A DNA stretch of 52,392 nucleotides from Anaerolineales bacterium. GTDB lineage: Bacteria > Chloroflexota > Anaerolineae > Anaerolineales > Villigracilaceae. The stretch covers positions 1 through 52,392 of the forward strand of contig JABWAU010000010.1 in assembly GCA_013360875.1 (NCBI GenBank). Reading direction: 5' to 3'. This document shows, piece after piece, positions 10,864 to 17,704 of this stretch. The notes beneath the pieces are model-generated. The model did not search any database, was not told the origin of the DNA, and saw only the letters and a program-made list of their open reading frames with translations. Position 1 is the stretch's first letter; every line of letters begins with the position of its first letter. A program made the position numbers and the translations under genes.

Positions 10864-12765
10864 TTACCTGCGAAGCGCGAGTTTTCTCGCGTCGCCGTGA
10901 CGCGCGGTCACGCCGATGGCATCCAGGTGTTCGAGCAACGCCTGCGCGAATTTCCTCGTCGTGCCGAGCATATCGCGCACCTCCGCCAGCGTGACCTGTC
11001 CGTTCCGTTGGATGGCTGTCTTTATTTTATCCACCATCTCATCATAATCTTTTTTCCGAAACACGACCTCCTGCGAGACGGCGACCAGTTCGCCCATTTC
11101 GATCAACGCGTTGAAGACCTCCTCGCCGACCTCCGCCTGACATTCCTTTACGCCCGGCGGACTGAACGGATTCGCCTCGAACCTGCGCTTCAATACCTGG
11201 ACCTTCGCCTGTTCCCGTCCATCGAACCTTATCTCATGCCCGGGCTTCGCGACCCAGGAGGAGTAATCGGTAATGGAGTTGTCAGCGATCAGTTTTCCAA
11301 GCAGGGCGTTGAAGATGCGAGGCGACAGTTTGAGCCTGCTCTTCAATTCTTCGCGTGGAACGCCTCGCCGGAGGGGATATTCGCGGTGATACGCCTCGAC
11401 CAACTGAATGGTTTTATCGTGCAACGCGCTCCAATGTGGGGATGGAACGACGAGCAGGTCGGCGTTGATCGTCGGTTTGCCGTCTTCGAGGGGGATCAAT
11501 TGTCCGTTCCCGATCAGTTCTTTCAGGGCGCCTTCCGCGTTTTCGTCGTCGAGCCTCGAACGGCGCACGATGTCCTGAATGGAGGCAACGTTCATGCCGA
11601 ACGCGGCTTCGAACAACACCTCGGCGGGGGAGCCTTGCGCCAGCGCCTCGAGGGATTTCGGAACGGTTTCATCGAATCGTTTGTGCCGTCCCTTTGGCTG
11701 GTGATCCACGATCACGCCCCCGCCCAGCGTCTCACCGGGAGAAGGGCGGCGCAGGATGTAGCGATCTCCGCGCACGGCAACCACCGGTTCGCGCAGTTCG
11801 AGTTGGATCCACGCCTCGTTGCCGGGCTGCAATTCCTCCGCGCCAAGCAATCGCAGGGTTCCAATGGTCTCGGACGCGCCGACGAAAAACTTGACCTCCT
11901 GCCCGTGCAGGACGGTGGAGGAGGCGTCCTTCAGCAATTTGAAACGCGCATCCAGCCGGCGCGTGGGCTGGTATTGACCCGGGCGCGCCAGCACGTCCCC
12001 ACGCCGGATCTGCTCCGTGCCGATCCCGGAAACGTTGACCGCCGTGCGCGACCCGGGGACCGCTCTCTCCTCTTTCTTCTTGTGGGTTTGCAGTCCGCGT
12101 ATTCTTCCCTTCAATCCGCCCGGCAAAATTTCGATGTCCTCGCCTGCGGAAAGATGCCCGTCGCTCAAGGTGCCGGTGACGACCGTGCCGAATCCGCTCA
12201 TGGTGAAGACGCGGTCAATGGGCAGGCGCGGACGGTTGAGGTCGGGGCGTGCGGGTTTTTCTTGAAGAAGTGATTGGAGGTTGGCAATTAGAGAATCGAG
12301 TCCGTTTTTGGTTTTGGCGGAGACGCGTACGATGGGCGCGTCTTTGAGAACGGTATCGGCAACAGCGGCGCGAATGTCCGTTTCGACGAGATCGAGCCAG
12401 GCTGAGTCCGAAGCGAGGTCGGTCTTGGTCAAAACGATGAGCCCGGCGGGAATCTGCAACAGGTCCAAAATCGCAAGATGTTCCTTCGTTTGCGGCATGA
12501 CGCCCTCGTCCGCCGCGACGACGAGGAGCGCGGCGTCTATCCCGCCGACGCCCGCGAGCATGTTTTCGATGAAGTCGCGGTGACCCGGCACATCCACAAT
12601 GCCGATCTCCTCGCCGTTCGGAAGCGTGAGCCAGGCGAAGCCGAGTTCGATGGTCATCTCACGCGCCTGTTCCTCCTTGAGGCGATCCGGGTGTACGCCG
12701 GTCAGCGCTTCGATGAGCGTGGATTTTCCGTGGTCAACGTGACCTGCCGTGCCGATAACGCGCAT
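10864..12765 (-). CDS. selB: Selenocysteine-specific elongation factor SelB
   Basis: A 633-aa translational GTPase. The N-terminal G domain has GHVDHGKST (residues 8-16), DVPGH and TKTD, followed by EF-Tu-like domains II and III. A C-terminal part from about residue 390 on contains winged-helix modules that bind the SECIS RNA hairpin (for example YHREYPLRRGVPREELKSR and the terminal VTLAEVRDMLGTTRKFAQAL). It delivers Sec-tRNA to UGA codons. The start has AGGAG three nt upstream. No selA, selD or tRNA-Sec was found in the window, so the rest of the pathway must lie elsewhere. Confidence 0.95.
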   Translation of the reverse strand: MRVIGTAGHVDHGKSTLIEALTGVHPDRLKEEQAREMTIELGFAWLTLPNGEEIGIVDVPGHRDFIENMLAGVGGIDAALLVVAADEGVMPQTKEHLAILDLLQIPAGLIVLTKTDLASDSAWLDLVETDIRAAVADTVLKDAPIVRVSAKTKNGLDSLIANLQSLLQEKPARPDLNRPRLPIDRVFTMSGFGTVVTGTLSDGHLSAGEDIEILPGGLKGRIRGLQTHKKKEERAVPGSRTAVNVSGIGTEQIRRGDVLARPGQYQPTRRLDARFKLLKDASSTVLHGQEVKFFVGASETIGTLRLLGAEELQPGNEAWIQLELREPVVAVRGDRYILRRPSPGETLGGGVIVDHQPKGRHKRFDETVPKSLEALAQGSPAEVLFEAAFGMNVASIQDIVRRSRLDDENAEGALKELIGNGQLIPLEDGKPTINADLLVVPSPHWSALHDKTIQLVEAYHREYPLRRGVPREELKSRLKLSPRIFNALLGKLIADNSITDYSSWVAKPGHEIRFDGREQAKVQVLKRRFEANPFSPPGVKECQAEVGEEVFNALIEMGELVAVSQEVVFRKKDYDEMVDKIKTAIQRNGQVTLAEVRDMLGTTRKFAQALLEHLDAIGVTARHGDARKLALRR

Positions 12766-12899: not shown

Positions 12900-14099
12900 T
12901 TATTTCTTTGTCTTCTTCGTCGTCTTGCCGTGACCCATGATGCGTTCGTACGCGGAGAGCCATTCGTGCGCCACGTTCATCAATTCCTGAAGTTGTGCCT
13001 CGGTGGTTTCCGCCGTCTGGTGCAGTTGATCCTGCGTAGTCTGCTGCGCCTCGTCCAGCGCGCGGATGCGATCCTCGAGTTTTTGGATGGACTTGCGCAG
13101 GTCCTTGCCGCTTTCGTCCAGCGAGAGGGTGTAGCCGGTCCAACGTTTCTGGTCGTCGGCTTTGAACGTAACCCATTCCTGCCTGAGGCGGTCCTCGGCG
13201 AGTCTTTGCATTTCGGTGACTTCGTTGATGCGCCGTTCGAGTTTGGAGTTGAGTTCGTTGTAGGTCTCCTGGGCGCGCTTTGCGGAACGAAGGGTTTCCT
13301 CGAGTGCCAGGGATTGCGCCTCGAGTTTTTCCACCTGCGCCTGGAAATCGGCGTAACTCTTGCTCCATTCCTTGTAGGCGCGTTCGCGGTCGAGGTGCGC
13401 GACGGATTGTTTTTCGATGAATTCGTTCTGCACGGCTTTGCGCTCGGCTTCGGAGACCATCAATTCCTTGATGCGGGTTTCCAGGTGCTTGAAACTGTCG
13501 GCGCTCGTGTCAATGCGGGAGCGTGTCTCGTCAATCCGTTTGCGGAGCGCCGTCAGCTCGCCCTGCAGGTCGGCGATGCGCTTCATGTCCTGCTTGCGGT
13601 TTTCGTCGAAGACGCGCTGGACGCGGGTCGCCTCCTCCGCGGCGCGTTTCGCCTCGTCAATGGGCGGTCTTAACTCCTTGATCTCCTGGTGCAGGCGCGT
13701 CTCTTCGAGGGCGCGGGCTTTGAGTTCGCGCTTGAGGGGGGCGATCTCCGTCAGCGCCTTTTTGATCTGGTCAATTTCCTTGTTGAGGGGTTCGAGGTCC
13801 TTCTGGTGCTGTTTGGTCAGGTCCTTTTCGCGTTTCTGGTATTTCTTCTCGAGTTCCTCGAGCGCGATCTTCATCTCTTCGCGTTGATTCGCGACGATGA
13901 CTTCGAACTGGTCAATGCGCGCGGAATTGGGCAGCAGCGCGGCGATCTGTTTTTCGAGCGGTTTGATCTGTTTGGCGACCGTGTCGAGATTCGCCTCGTA
14001 GGAGGCGATGCGTTCCTCCAGTTCGATGATCGCGGCTTTATCCTTGCGGTGTTCCTCGTCAAGCCATTGCAGGCGTTTGACGATCTGTTCGAAATCCAT
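12900..14099 (-). CDS. Long coiled-coil protein of unknown function
   Basis: A 399-aa protein that is almost entirely charged heptad sequence from residue 2 to about 370 (for example EELEKKYQKREKDLTKQHQK). It ends in a short hydrophobic-helical patch (AHEWLSAYERIM) and a Lys/Thr-rich tail. No signal peptide or membrane segment is present. It may be a structural or SMC-like scaffold; no catalytic motif is visible. It starts 48 bp after the last complex I-like gene on the same strand, so it may be co-transcribed with that cluster and act with it, but this is only positional evidence. GC content and codon use match the neighbours. Confidence 0.75.
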   Translation of the reverse strand: MDFEQIVKRLQWLDEEHRKDKAAIIELEERIASYEANLDTVAKQIKPLEKQIAALLPNSARIDQFEVIVANQREEMKIALEELEKKYQKREKDLTKQHQKDLEPLNKEIDQIKKALTEIAPLKRELKARALEETRLHQEIKELRPPIDEAKRAAEEATRVQRVFDENRKQDMKRIADLQGELTALRKRIDETRSRIDTSADSFKHLETRIKELMVSEAERKAVQNEFIEKQSVAHLDRERAYKEWSKSYADFQAQVEKLEAQSLALEETLRSAKRAQETYNELNSKLERRINEVTEMQRLAEDRLRQEWVTFKADDQKRWTGYTLSLDESGKDLRKSIQKLEDRIRALDEAQQTTQDQLHQTAETTEAQLQELMNVAHEWLSAYERIMGHGKTTKKTKK

Positions 14100-14147: not shown

Positions 14148-15545
14148 TCAACGACCGAGGTGTTCGAACATGGCTGGCAGGTCCGTCAGAAAGAATTGAA
14201 CCGCCTGAGGGAACAAGCCCAGGACGAAAAGCCCGATCATTCCCAGCCCGAGCATGATCCCCTGCAGCCAATTTTCGCCCACTTCCCAGCCTGTGTATTC
14301 GTCCGCCATGCTGAGGACAGCCAGCGAACGGAACGACGCCGTGAATAAACCGACAATACCGATTCCCATCCACAACGCCGCGTCGAGCGAGACGCGCGCC
14401 AGGGCATCCCACAACGCCAGCCGCGCAGGGAAGCCCGCCAGCAAGGGCAGTCCGCTTGTGGAGAGCGAGGCAAGCACCAGCCCGGCGCTCGCAAACGGGA
14501 AACGCCTGAGCAAACCGCGCGTCTCGCCGAAGCGCATCGTTTTGGACTGTTCCCTGAGGATGGTCAGCGAGAGCGACCAGACCGCCAGCGCTAGCGCGCG
14601 CGCGGGGAGGAGCAAAAACAGGATGGGAATCCCCAGCCTCAGGTCCAGGCTGAGCGCAAGCAGGCAGAATCCCGTATCGGCGATGGAGCCGAACGCCATG
14701 ATCCGCCCAAGGTGGTTTTGGAACGCCGCCCACAATCCGCCGGTGACGAGCATGAGCAATCCACTGAATTGCAGGGCGGTGGTCAGTTCGGGTGAAGTGC
14801 GGAGCCAGGAGTAACGGTCAATGAACCCCGCGCCGAAGATCAGGGTGATGGTGGGGATGATCCAAAGAAGGAAGCCGACCACAAAGGGATGGGTCTCCTC
14901 CAGCAGCATGGGAATCCAGTTGTACAACGGAAAGATCGCCAGCAGGAACGCGAACCCAAGCCCAAGCACGGCGGCAGCTTGACCGGCCAAAGCCAGGTTG
15001 CCGGGGCTGACCTCCACGCCAGCCAACAGCCAGCCGGAAATCAGGATGAACGGCATGGCAAGCGTTTGATAGATGAGGAATCGAACGACGCCGCGTCCGG
15101 GCGGTTGATCCGCGCCCGCCAGCAGGGGAACCGCCAGCAGGACAGCCATCTCGATGAAGAGCGCGGCGAAAAGGAACGGCTCCACCGCGATCGAAGCGAC
15201 CATCAACGCTGTGATCAACAGTCCCAGCGGCGCGAAGCGCAGCGCCGATTTGGAGGCTTCCGCGCCGAAGAACCATAACGCCGTCCCTCCAAAGATCAAC
15301 GCCAGCAGGGGTCCCTCTTCCGGCTTGATGAGAAGTTCCCTGCCGAGGACGCTTAACGACGATTCGATCCTGAAAGATAACGCGCCCACTTTCAACGCCT
15401 CTTCCGTCGGGATGAATTGCGCGGACGCCGCGAGCAGGACCGCCGCCGTTCCCCCGATGAGACTCAACGCGCGCTGGTTGCGAACGAGAATCAACAGAAC
15501 GGCGATGACAGCCGGGGCGATGATCCAGATCGTTGGAGAGTTCAT
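14148..15545 (-). CDS. NuoM/NuoN-like membrane subunit (proton-conducting transporter family, divergent)
   Basis: A 465-aa protein with about 14 hydrophobic helices resembling antiporter-like subunits of complex I, Mrp or group 4 hydrogenases. Landmarks are a Glu in FIEMAVLLAVPLL (equivalent to the helix-5 Glu), a degenerate PLYNWIPMLLEE in place of PFHTWLPDA, and AAFQNHLGRIMAFGSIADTG in place of the A..Q.DLKRLLAYSSI motif. The lysines expected in helices 7 and 8 are not visible (FAFLLAIFPLY, PTITLIFGAGF). The ATG at 15545 overlaps the stop of the preceding gene (ATGA). The open frame extends further upstream but is out of phase with real coding there. Role is probably ion translocation or a structural partner. 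Confidence 0.8.
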   Translation of the reverse strand: MNSPTIWIIAPAVIAVLLILVRNQRALSLIGGTAAVLLAASAQFIPTEEALKVGALSFRIESSLSVLGRELLIKPEEGPLLALIFGGTALWFFGAEASKSALRFAPLGLLITALMVASIAVEPFLFAALFIEMAVLLAVPLLAGADQPPGRGVVRFLIYQTLAMPFILISGWLLAGVEVSPGNLALAGQAAAVLGLGFAFLLAIFPLYNWIPMLLEETHPFVVGFLLWIIPTITLIFGAGFIDRYSWLRTSPELTTALQFSGLLMLVTGGLWAAFQNHLGRIMAFGSIADTGFCLLALSLDLRLGIPILFLLLPARALALAVWSLSLTILREQSKTMRFGETRGLLRRFPFASAGLVLASLSTSGLPLLAGFPARLALWDALARVSLDAALWMGIGIVGLFTASFRSLAVLSMADEYTGWEVGENWLQGIMLGLGMIGLFVLGLFPQAVQFFLTDLPAMFEHLGR

Positions 15546-16138
15546 GGCGTTTCCGTTTCCTGCGTGTTGGAGGCGATCATCAGATAGGAGCCAGCCAAAG
15601 CCAGCCCGAGGTTGACGATGGCAAGCAAAGCCGCCAGCAGAACCGAACTTTCGACCGCGGCGTGAATGACCTCGAACCCGGAAAGAACCGTCATCAAACC
15701 GATTGACGCGCGCATGGGCTGGTCGGTGACGCCGAGGTGAAGCAATCCCATGCCGATCAAGAGCATTCCTCCCGCGGAGACCGTCGCTCCGGCGTCCGCC
15801 ATCATGGAGTCCACAAACGGGGCGCCGGTGGCGGCGATCAAACCGACGAAACCGGCGGCAATCAGGCGGAAGAGTCGTCCCTGCGGGAGCGCGCTTGCGC
15901 CTTCGTCCTTCTCGCTCATGTTCGAGCGCGTCATGCCCAGGATGACCGCGCTCATCCAGCCCGCGATCACTTTGACGGTCGCCGCGCCAAGAGTCCAGTG
16001 TTGCAGGGTGAGAAGAAACACCCCGACATATTGCAGGGAAAGAAAAATGATCAGCCAACGCCAGTCGCGCGCGAGCAATATGCCCGCGGAAGTGACGGCG
16101 ATCAGCACGATGACGGTCCACGAGAGAAGAGGAGACAT
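15542..16138 (-). CDS. NuoK/HyfE/MrpC-like small membrane subunit
   Basis: A 198-aa membrane protein with about six helices. Its C-terminal half (LLIGMGLLHLGVTDQPMRASIGLMTVLSGFEVIHAAVESS in two parts, with Glu in SGFEVIHAAVE) resembles HyfE, NuoK and MrpC subunits, which hold membrane Glu residues of the proton path. The N-terminal half resembles an additional two- or three-helix unit. It starts 3 bp after the stop of the NuoL-like gene and overlaps the next gene by 4 bp, so the three genes form a tight operon. The assignment to a subfamily is by eye and could be HyfE rather than NuoK. Confidence 0.65.
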   Translation of the reverse strand: MSPLLSWTVIVLIAVTSAGILLARDWRWLIIFLSLQYVGVFLLTLQHWTLGAATVKVIAGWMSAVILGMTRSNMSEKDEGASALPQGRLFRLIAAGFVGLIAATGAPFVDSMMADAGATVSAGGMLLIGMGLLHLGVTDQPMRASIGLMTVLSGFEVIHAAVESSVLLAALLAIVNLGLALAGSYLMIASNTQETETP

Positions 16139-16141
16139 GGA

Positions 16142-17704
16142 TTAAGGCGCCCCCCGGATGAAGATGGAAATGAAAAGCACGAGGAAGAGAAGGGTCCACA
16201 TAATCCCGCTTTCGCCTTCCAGCACGTTCGAAAAGGCATGAATGACTCTTCTCGCTGCGCGATACAACTCCCAGGTCGTTTGGTAGATGGCGTCCAGCCA
16301 GTCCGGGTCGGCGGAGCGTACCCAATGGGCGCGGACCGGGCTGAGGAGGCGCACGCGGCGGGAAAGCCAAATCAAGCCAAATGCCAGGATGGAGGCGGCG
16401 AGCGCGGCGATCCAGTTGCCGATCTGTAACGCCCCGTCCCAATCGGAGAAGCCCAGGAGCAAAATCGTCAACAAAACGATATACACCCCGAACGGATACA
16501 CGTTCTTTGCCCAGATGGGCTGATTTTCGAACGTTGCGCGCGCGGAGGAACGCCGGCACATGCGGATATACCCCGCAAGCAGGGCGGCTTGCGCGAAGAC
16601 CAGGAACGGCATCGCATACCAAAACCCTCCGCGTTCGCTGACCCAGCCTGTGGCGGTAAGCGAAAACGGCAGAGCGGAAATCCCCCACGCGCCGACGAGC
16701 AACGCCTTATCCATCCAACGGCTTTCGGCGGAAGCGATGAAAAGCGCGCCGCCGGAAAGCATGAGCGCGCAACTCCACGCGGCGGCGCCGGCCGCGTTGC
16801 CCCGCAACGCCGAAGCGACCGCCAGCGCGCCCATGCCGATCATCCAAAAGGGACGCCCGCTTAATTCGTCGGGCGAACGGAGCCACGTCCACGCGCCGTA
16901 CAGCGCGGCGAAGGTCACGAAGATCGTCAGGTAGGGCGTGATCGGCGATTCGACTCCGCCGAACGGAATGCGCGCGAGCAGGATCAAGCTCGACCCTGCC
17001 GAGACCGTCCGCAGGGCGGTGCCGAATCCCTGGCGGAAGGACACCTCGCTTGCGTACGGCAAGTGAAGCGGCAATACGCCGAGGCGGAACGCGGAAGCCG
17101 TCACCAGAAACAAACCCGCGCGCGGCGGCGCGGAAGGAAAATCGAAAACAGAGCCTTCTGATGCGCTAACCATGCTCGCCCAAAGCAGGATCAGGATCCC
17201 CGTCACGCGCGAAGCGAACGAGAGAACCACGCGTTCGCTCAACTTTGGGTGTTCCACGAAACGGATTTGCGCGATCATCTCCGCAAGGTCAATCGCCGCC
17301 CAAAGCAGGACGAGTGTCAGGGGGTTGTCCGCAGTCACCGCAAGGACGCCCAACGCGCCCAGGATCAACACGCCGGTCCAACTGAGCGGGGTGGGAAAGT
17401 TCTCGCGCGCCACAGCCGTAACGATCACCCCCAGACAAACCGTCACGATGCTGAGCGCGAACGCCCAGGCGGTTCCATCCGCAATGAACAGCGGCGACTG
17501 CCTGAAAATGCTTTCGGGTTTCCAGAGGGGGAGTTGCGTGACGGCGGGCAAATTCGCCTGCCAGACGAACACGCTGATCCAGGCGGTCAGCGCGCCGCCC
17601 GCAGCCGTCAGCCACGCGAAGCGGAAATCCGGCGCCGCGAACCGCAGGACCAGCAGAACCAGAGCCGTAAAGAGCAGAATGCCGACTGTGATAAAAATGA
17701 ACAT
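16142..17704 (-). CDS. NuoL/NuoM-like membrane subunit (highly divergent)
   Basis: A 520-aa protein with about 14 helices, the first gene of the trio. Similarity to NuoL-type subunits is seen in the general hydropathy and in the FRLGVLPLHLPYASE segment, which lines up with K..PLHTWLPDAM. The helix-7 Lys is Arg here. The helix-5 WE motif reads LLWAAIDLAEM, so the expected Glu has become Ala. HAATMV is replaced by RTVSAGS. The C-terminus ends in a lone membrane helix after an amphipathic segment (DAIYQTTWELYRAARRVIHA), as in NuoL-type proteins with a lateral helix. No catalytic complex I or hydrogenase subunits are nearby. Confidence 0.7.
   Translation of the reverse strand: MFIFITVGILLFTALVLLVLRFAAPDFRFAWLTAAGGALTAWISVFVWQANLPAVTQLPLWKPESIFRQSPLFIADGTAWAFALSIVTVCLGVIVTAVARENFPTPLSWTGVLILGALGVLAVTADNPLTLVLLWAAIDLAEMIAQIRFVEHPKLSERVVLSFASRVTGILILLWASMVSASEGSVFDFPSAPPRAGLFLVTASAFRLGVLPLHLPYASEVSFRQGFGTALRTVSAGSSLILLARIPFGGVESPITPYLTIFVTFAALYGAWTWLRSPDELSGRPFWMIGMGALAVASALRGNAAGAAAWSCALMLSGGALFIASAESRWMDKALLVGAWGISALPFSLTATGWVSERGGFWYAMPFLVFAQAALLAGYIRMCRRSSARATFENQPIWAKNVYPFGVYIVLLTILLLGFSDWDGALQIGNWIAALAASILAFGLIWLSRRVRLLSPVRAHWVRSADPDWLDAIYQTTWELYRAARRVIHAFSNVLEGESGIMWTLLFLVLFISIFIRGAP

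Follow-up and report, generated by a model that had tools for sequence, protein, structure and literature searches.

In this study, we analysed a window of 52,392 nucleotides (contig JABWAU010000010.1 of the Anaerolineales bacterium assembly GCA_013360875.1) and focused on three tightly coupled membrane protein genes on its minus strand, here called A, B, and C. The explanation that we prefer overall, at about even confidence, is that this trio is a free-standing membrane arm that has no redox subunits, does not pump, and acts on a partner. The parts of this explanation differ in strength. The trio very likely originates from the membrane arm of a redox machine whose redox half was lost. Judged from its residues, it quite likely does not pump protons in the canonical manner, and its task is probably something other than redox-driven proton pumping. 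That it acts conformationally on a partner is put forward tentatively. What is new here is that, outside the class Anaerolineae, A-B-C stands behind a gene of the NuoD/hydrogenase-large-subunit type and often before a NuoB-like gene and a gene for a membrane protein of 270-285 amino acids.

The three genes are read in the order A, B, C. Gene A (16142..17704) encodes a divergent NuoL-like membrane protein of 520 amino acids that ends in a short amphipathic helix and a last transmembrane helix. Gene B (15542..16138), supported by its open frame and its predicted model, encodes a seven-helix protein of 198 amino acids. Gene C (14148..15545) encodes a NuoN/M-like protein of 465 amino acids, and its start was placed at the ATG at 15545, within a longer open frame. 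As the initial annotation of this DNA had described, the coupling is tight, with a gap of 3 bp between A and B and an overlap of 4 bp between B and C. Its statement that no complex I, hydrogenase, or Mrp genes lie nearby also holds. None of the 18 window genes scanned with Pfam (about 4.6-29.7 kb, trio included) belongs to these families except C, and C is the sole match to PF00361, PF00346, or PF01058 on this contig, the other matches of the same genome lying on different contigs. Profile searches of the window for the additional genes found outside the class (D, S, and H, described below) gave no matches. On the same strand, C is followed by a coiled-coil gene, CC, and then by SelB.

Searches of A against Pfam, NCBIfam, and PDB sequences gave nothing significant, and A has no PF00361 match. 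Its identity was approached through profiles and fold. By hhalign, A reaches 94% against a NuoL set (NuoM 40%, NuoN 64%) and 98% against the A proteins of other Chloroflexota, which in turn reach 99.9% against NuoL. The AlphaFold2 model of A (predicted local distance difference test, pLDDT, 82; predicted template modelling score 0.84; 68 alignment rows) superposes on E. coli NuoL (7p61_L) with a Z score of 32.6 and a root-mean-square deviation (rmsd) of 3.8 over 469 aligned residues. The 50 structure matches listed for A are complex I chains (most of them NuoL/ND5) or antiporter-like chains of Mrp or MBS, and Foldseek gives an E value of 5.7e-11 to 8e9g_L. Based on the profiles and the predicted fold, A is a very divergent NuoL of the NuoL/antiporter-like superfamily, in line with the NuoL-like call of the initial annotation. 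Its residues 468-496 (16217..16303, minus strand) form, in the model, a short amphipathic helix resembling a lateral helix, which ends in a conserved LEGE motif.

The same annotation had called C NuoM/N-like and B HyfE/NuoK-like, and the two calls fared differently. C scores 54 bits with PF00361 (cut-off 21.5), reaches 99% by hhalign against NuoM/N, and has NuoN- and MBS-type chains as its best PDB matches; by these profile matches, it is a member of the NuoN/M-like family. B, like A, matches nothing significantly in Pfam, NCBIfam, or the PDB sequences, although its seven-helix model is confident (pLDDT 92). B reaches only 3-6% by hhalign against the HyfE profile, versus 0.07-0.3% for four control membrane proteins, and its model has no Foldseek match at E <= 0.001. 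The best structure row for B is the V-ATPase chain 7uw9_g with Z 8.1, a score in the range of chance similarity between helical bundles, and the Mrp chain 7d3u_G gives Z 5.9 with an rmsd of 2.6 over 81 residues. The gene does lie between L-like and N-like genes, which is the HyfE position. B was not accepted as HyfE/NuoK by sequence or fold: the label rests on gene position and size, and homology is unproven. Neither A nor B receives an informative Pfam or NCBIfam name, and such genes are normally passed over.

Residues were mapped in joint MAFFT alignments, with E. coli Nuo and Hyf proteins and the NuoL, NuoM, NuoN, and MrpA of the same genome as positive controls; mapping by hhalign alone misaligned helix 5 of C, and the joint alignments were used instead. 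The named proton-path residues were verified at their positions in E. coli, and their function in the proton path is in part taken as background. Counts refer to an order-wide set (35 A, 40 B, and 34 C rows) and to a closer set (68 A, 72 B, and 70 C rows), and all residue coordinates are on the minus strand.

In A, the joint alignment confirms the earlier reading of Ala for the helix-5 Glu and Arg for the helix-7 Lys, with the correction that a near-invariant acid stands one turn later. The NuoL Glu144 column (helix 5) has Ala in 20, Thr in 7, and Val in 4 of the 35 order-wide rows. One turn past it, Asp139 (17288..17290) is present in 68/68 rows of the closer set and 34/35 order-wide. Glu142 (17279..17281) is an acid in 68/68 rows, and Glu in 19/35 order-wide. 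Arg166 (17207..17209), one residue ahead of the NuoL Arg175 column, is basic in 65/68 rows and Arg in 21/35 order-wide, and Arg207 (17084..17086), at the position of the helix-7 lysine NuoL Lys229, is found in every row of both sets (68/68; 35/35). In the closer set, the alignment places two retained acids (Asp139, Glu142) and two retained bases (Arg166, Arg207) of A close to the ion-pair gate of NuoL. NuoL His334, His338, Lys342, and Lys399 are lost in A as family features, with His at position 334 in one row. Moreover, across columns 190-359 of A, no column has Lys in more than 20% of the order-wide rows, and His214 is the only column in which His exceeds that share. In the model of the window protein, helices 9 and 11 carry no charged residue, and helices 7 and 12 are short, near the invariant Pro212 and Pro346. 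Judging by these alignments, the loss of lysines is a family trait and not a peculiarity of the window copy.

Similarly, the helix-7 and helix-8 lysines that had been reported missing from C are absent, with the correction that the helix-5 acid is retained. The NuoN Lys217 column (helix 7) holds Leu in 26, Trp in 3, and Ile in 2 rows and His, Phe, and Ser in one each, with no Lys in 34 rows. The NuoN Lys247 column (helix 8) has no Lys in the 29 rows listed of 34, in a register that is uncertain by about a residue and in which the canonical rows are themselves offset. Glu132 (15150..15152), the helix-5 acid, lies one residue ahead of the NuoN Glu133 column and is Glu in 60 and Asp in 3 of 70 rows, and is present in 22/34 order-wide. 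Asp290 (14676..14678) occupies the position of NuoN His305, with an acid in 64/70 rows; Arg316 (14598..14600) that of NuoM His348, basic in 65/70 and Arg in 30/34 order-wide; and Arg375 (14421..14423) that of NuoN Lys395 in helix 12, with Arg in 56 and Lys in 2 of 70 rows (order-wide Arg 24, Lys 3, and His 3 of 34). B carries conserved charges as well: Lys56 (15971..15973; 72/72, order-wide 32/40), Glu156 (15671..15673; 72/72, order-wide 34/40), and Glu163 (15650..15652; 71 Glu and 1 Asp of 72, order-wide 38/40).

Outside the class, gene D precedes A-B-C in most fetched loci, and genes S and H often follow C. The three D proteins tested match PF00346 at E values of 1e-35 to 1e-48; the only one searched in PDB, from locus L168, has HycE (7z0s) and MbhL (6cfw) as its best matches, and in NCBIfam two D proteins score best with NuoD models but fall far short of the cut-offs. 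S is NuoB-like, the S of L167 matching PF01058 at 42.7 bits against 27. H is the membrane gene of 270-285 amino acids; it has no Pfam match above cut-off, and NuoH was rejected as its identity (hhalign 0.3%). The full order D-A-B-C-S-H occurs in 6/6 uncut loci of family f72, in which two more are clipped at contig ends, and in 1/1 locus of f75. D-A-B-C-H occurs in 9/9 loci of f36 (S in 1/9), D-A-B-C with a Cys-less S in 1/1 locus of f93, and D-A-B-C in 4/4 loci of f46. A and C without D occur in 5/5 loci of f45, with a B-like frame in the three inspected, and A-B-C without D in 1/1 locus of f40 (L170). The f35 locus L169 has C alone and was excluded from trio counts and retained in the outgroup C set and tree. 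The gene number thus runs from six (D-A-B-C-S-H) through five and four to three, and only the trio was seen in the Anaerolineae loci searched: D, S, and H were found in none of the 40 loci of the order, the 80 loci from named genomes, the 10 class loci outside the order, or the window. In L164 and L168 (f72), D carries RICGECSFAHS and a C-terminal VCVAC pair, which we take to be NiFe-ligand Cys pairs, and S has four Cys, presumably cluster ligands; these motifs are partly changed in f36, f46, f93, and f75.

The initial annotation had set complex I or hydrogenase genes beyond a conserved gene order in relatives against the idea of a degenerate module. Such genes do occur, outside the class, and in no Anaerolineae locus searched. 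Because D and S were found outside the class only, they explain where the trio came from and do not refute a cut-down module.

Three further observations concern these outside loci. In L164, L165, L167, and L168, a same-strand gene that reads like an ABC ATPase follows D-A-B-C-(S)-H, confirmed by Pfam in L164 only (PF00005). In G110 (f35), C-like and B-like genes lie on separate contigs, C80 and C344. Among nine outgroup A proteins aligned, the helix-5 Glu and the three lysines are all retained only in that of the D-less trio of L170 (L170:8660-12572), and by its residues this trio is possibly a still-working minimal antiporter.

We propose that A, B, and C would be the membrane arm (NuoL-like, HyfE-position, and NuoN-like, respectively) of a former machine of the group 4 hydrogenase, Ehr, or complex I type. 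In Anaerolineae, the electron-transfer subunits (NuoD-like D and NuoB-like S) and the membrane gene H would have been lost, rather than gained elsewhere, and the trio would persist as a free-standing membrane complex, presumably assembled as in Hyf and complex I. A would hold a charge cluster, formed by the acids Asp139 and Glu142 and the bases Arg166 and Arg207, near the gating ion pairs of NuoL. The remaining wire (the helix 10/11 His/Lys and the helix 12 Lys) is gone and the leftover bases are mostly Arg, so that pumping by the complex I route is not expected. In isolated Nqo12 and Nqo13, loss of a charged residue at the middle or terminal position, as in K385I, K235M, or E377Q, stops proton conduction, which is also modulated by the ion pair, according to the part of the report that we consulted (PMC11496545); judged against these mutants, A and C are not expected to conduct along the established route. 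The trio would more likely act on a non-redox partner, either as a module that changes conformation in response to voltage or protons or as a scaffold locked by its charges. The earlier suggestion of a cut-down module with another coupling partner, or of a derivative that no longer pumps, is supported as regards the reduced gene set and the missing proton-path residues, and is unproven as regards the coiled-coil protein as the partner.

Several observations weigh against this proposal. Acidic and basic residues at buried positions show strong conservation in the closer set and could equally mark a re-routed ion path. The gate is not universal, as seen in the order-wide counts of Glu142 (19/35), Arg166 (21/35), and C Glu132 (22/34). 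The A proteins of redox-containing relatives also lack most lysines, and helix 7 of their C has Arg or another residue; the loss of lysines is therefore not a consequence of the loss of the redox half. Furthermore, the tree of C leaves both the D-less lines and the direction of change (loss versus gain elsewhere) unsettled, with many long branches. Finally, the B protein of G097, a genome considered below, lacks Lys56 and Glu156.

The main rival to the non-pumping reading is a rewired ion path, which we regard as rather unlikely: the trio would still transport H+, Na+, or another ion through its new Asp, Glu, and Arg residues, as a small Mrp-type antiporter without redox subunits. The charges of A, B, and C are conserved at 90-100% in the closer set, C retains its helix-5 acid, and the short helices 7 and 12 of the A model lie near invariant prolines, all of which would suit such a transporter. 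Dissected NuoL and NuoM modules also conduct protons unaided, as stated in the portion of PMC11496545 that was available. However, the order-wide A columns 190-359 offer no common Lys, and the modelled helices 9 and 11 of the window protein are uncharged. Arg does not titrate readily. Moreover, the genome already has a separate Mrp cluster (contig C34, with MrpA- and MnhB-type genes).

A second rival reverses the direction of change, with the trio first and D, S, and H added to it in a single event, in the common ancestor of the families that have D. In a tree of 64 C proteins, the D-positive loci form one clade (96/88) and the canonical NuoN, NuoM, and HyfF another (100/99), and the D-less trios fall on several other branches, a pattern that agrees with a single recruitment. 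On the other hand, canonical Hyf and Nuo already carry homologues of D, S, and H, D resembles the hydrogenase and NuoD proteins, and the D-positive clade itself includes loci that lack S or both S and H. We consider this rival unlikely. Loss is the more parsimonious reading, given that D, S, and H have homologues in the canonical relatives, and the tree allows one later gain.

The trio might instead dock on the cell's own canonical complex I as an additional or alternative membrane arm. The genome of the window encodes complex I on other contigs, two sets as read from family matches, and a NuoD-family gene is present in 99/101 relatives, the exceptions being G094 (78% complete) and G097. However, G097, a genome of one contig that is 99% complete, keeps the trio open and in order, with CC adjoining, and it has no PF00346 and no PF01058 match, the C of the trio being its sole PF00361 protein. 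Its A keeps Asp139 and Arg207, and its C lacks Glu132. This inventory rules out a spare arm of complex I for G097 and indicates that the trio can persist in a genome that has none of the complex I, group 4 hydrogenase, or Mrp types covered by these families. Overall, docking on complex I appears very unlikely.

Two side observations were made in the genome of the window (G000). One complex I cluster, on contig C156, includes an extra NuoM-type gene, ownM2 (L080:6397-7911, PF00361), with Leu in the helix-7 Lys column, the neighbouring complex I proteins retaining Lys. In addition, a third PF01058 match, in a frame of 344 amino acids (G000:C91:6978-7466), lies outside both complex I sets and is perhaps a soluble hydrogenase small subunit.

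The distribution of the trio was followed through B, which is present in 91/101 genomes (own and 100 relatives). Loci were fetched for 40 of 91 B matches, some of them clipped at contig ends, and with gene starts chosen by alignment. In all 40 order-level loci, A-B-C keep the same order and strand, with an A-B gap within 10 bp in 34/40 and a B-C overlap of 1 or 4 bp in 37/40; the trio is thus not a chance observation. A scan of named genomes confirmed 213 relatives, and the best 80 of the 213, judged by titles, are Chloroflexota. Among 400 genomes of the phylum, B was found in 91 at E <= 1e-5: 35/36 of the order, 17/19 of the other class genomes (one weak), and 39/345 elsewhere (at least one doubtful), so that 52/55 sampled Anaerolineae carry it, with one weak match. 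Some low-scoring B matches sit in frames of about 800-1000 amino acids and look unrelated; the sole matches of G218 in the class (E 8.4e-7, 781-aa frame) and of G236 in the phylum are of this long-frame kind and may be false. Conversely, G443 was scored as a miss, yet its trio is visible in L179. Of the 10 loci from the class but not the order, a profile search located A in five, and in L172, B-C is present and A is not directly upstream.

Between the window and L083, A differs by nonsynonymous (dN) and synonymous (dS) rates of 0.019 and 0.183 (dN/dS about 0.1), and B is identical; the remaining pairwise comparisons have dS of 0.9-2.8, near saturation. On this comparison, the trio appears to be under purifying selection. 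A functionless, decaying remnant, to which the loss of catalytic residues and partner genes might point, is a nearly negligible prospect beside open, ordered genes in 40/40 loci, this dN/dS, and near-universal presence in the order. Separately, an alignment of window positions 14625-17704 with SZPG01000003.1 (L083) is about 92% identical over the first 1.1 kb of gene A and 100% identical over the following 1.9 kb, a step that is either a recombination edge or an assembly mosaic.

Compared with known systems, the trio order corresponds to HyfD-E-F, and the relatives outside the class, with D-A-B-C-S-H, resemble Ehr and the group 4 [NiFe] hydrogenases (Hyf, Mbh, Mbx). Ehr complexes are related to group 4 and lack the Ni- and Fe-binding residues, as described in the part of the source used (PMC6349859). 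Unlike these hydrogenases, the window trio is encoded without a large or small subunit gene, and its proton-path lysines are missing. With the complex I membrane arm (NuoL, NuoN, NuoK), it shares the NuoL fold of A and the PF00361 membership of C, whereas its cluster has no NuoB or NuoD family gene. Like Mrp, it comprises antiporter-like proteins without redox subunits; unlike Mrp, no Mrp family besides C was found among the 18 scanned window genes, and the MrpA of the same genome keeps the Glu and the lysines. The DAB complex (DabA-DabB) also puts a NuoL-like protein to non-redox use, and DabB2 has a short lateral helix, an altered ion pair, and the NuoL proton-transfer residues, in the text available of PMC13144422. 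In contrast, A lacks the residues that DabB2 keeps, and DabA (PF10070) was found in 0/2 genomes (own and G097), on which ground a DAB complex was rejected. Laboratory-dissected Nqo12 and Nqo13 are likewise membrane modules without a peripheral arm, except that they keep the lysine wire that the natural trio has lost.

At a little short of even confidence, we suggest that, next to Mrp and DAB, the trio forms a third line of the complex I superfamily with a non-redox role, namely an autonomous L-E-N complex, present order-wide, that has an ion-pair gate and no proton wire and that drives or senses some process via a non-redox partner, conceivably the coiled-coil protein. The coupling of membrane and redox arms in complex I is a long-standing question that has been studied by dissecting the enzyme, and here nature seems to have made the cut. 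The versions with six, five, four, and three genes form a natural series for testing the roles of the gating ion pairs and of the lysine wire, and they raise the question of what use a pump arm is that probably cannot pump. No description of the trio was found in the titles and abstract openings of the literature searched, with subscription papers mostly outside the coverage. In the text examined, the Chloroflexus aurantiacus genome paper reports two complex I clusters and does not mention the operon (PMC3150298), nor does a proteomic paper (PMC9316378), and a genome-neighbourhood study pairs NuoL homologues with YbcC and not with the trio (PMC5700660).

The initial annotation had offered the coiled-coil gene downstream as a possible coupling partner. 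CC (12900..14099, minus strand; 399 amino acids) is a conserved neighbour and a candidate partner by gene order, and SelB (10864..12765, minus strand) is an elongation factor linked to CC and outside the trio. Conservation of gene order including CC, which had been proposed as a check, was observed: no more than 700 bp separate C from the downstream CC in 28/40 order-level and 71/80 named loci. SelB adjoins CC in 27/33 (order) and 70/73 (named) of the CC-bearing loci, and by these counts the CC-SelB link is about as strong as the CC-trio link. In L070, L072, L073, L075, and L137, CC was not found at E 1e-6 despite room downstream. The CC-trio link is real as gene order and no proof of function. 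With CC tied about as tightly to SelB, and distant or not found in several loci, we did not accept it as a proven partner, and that the trio acts on CC seems improbable. In L051, L066, and L076-L078, CC lies about 2.4 kb from C, and SelB still adjoins CC in all five.

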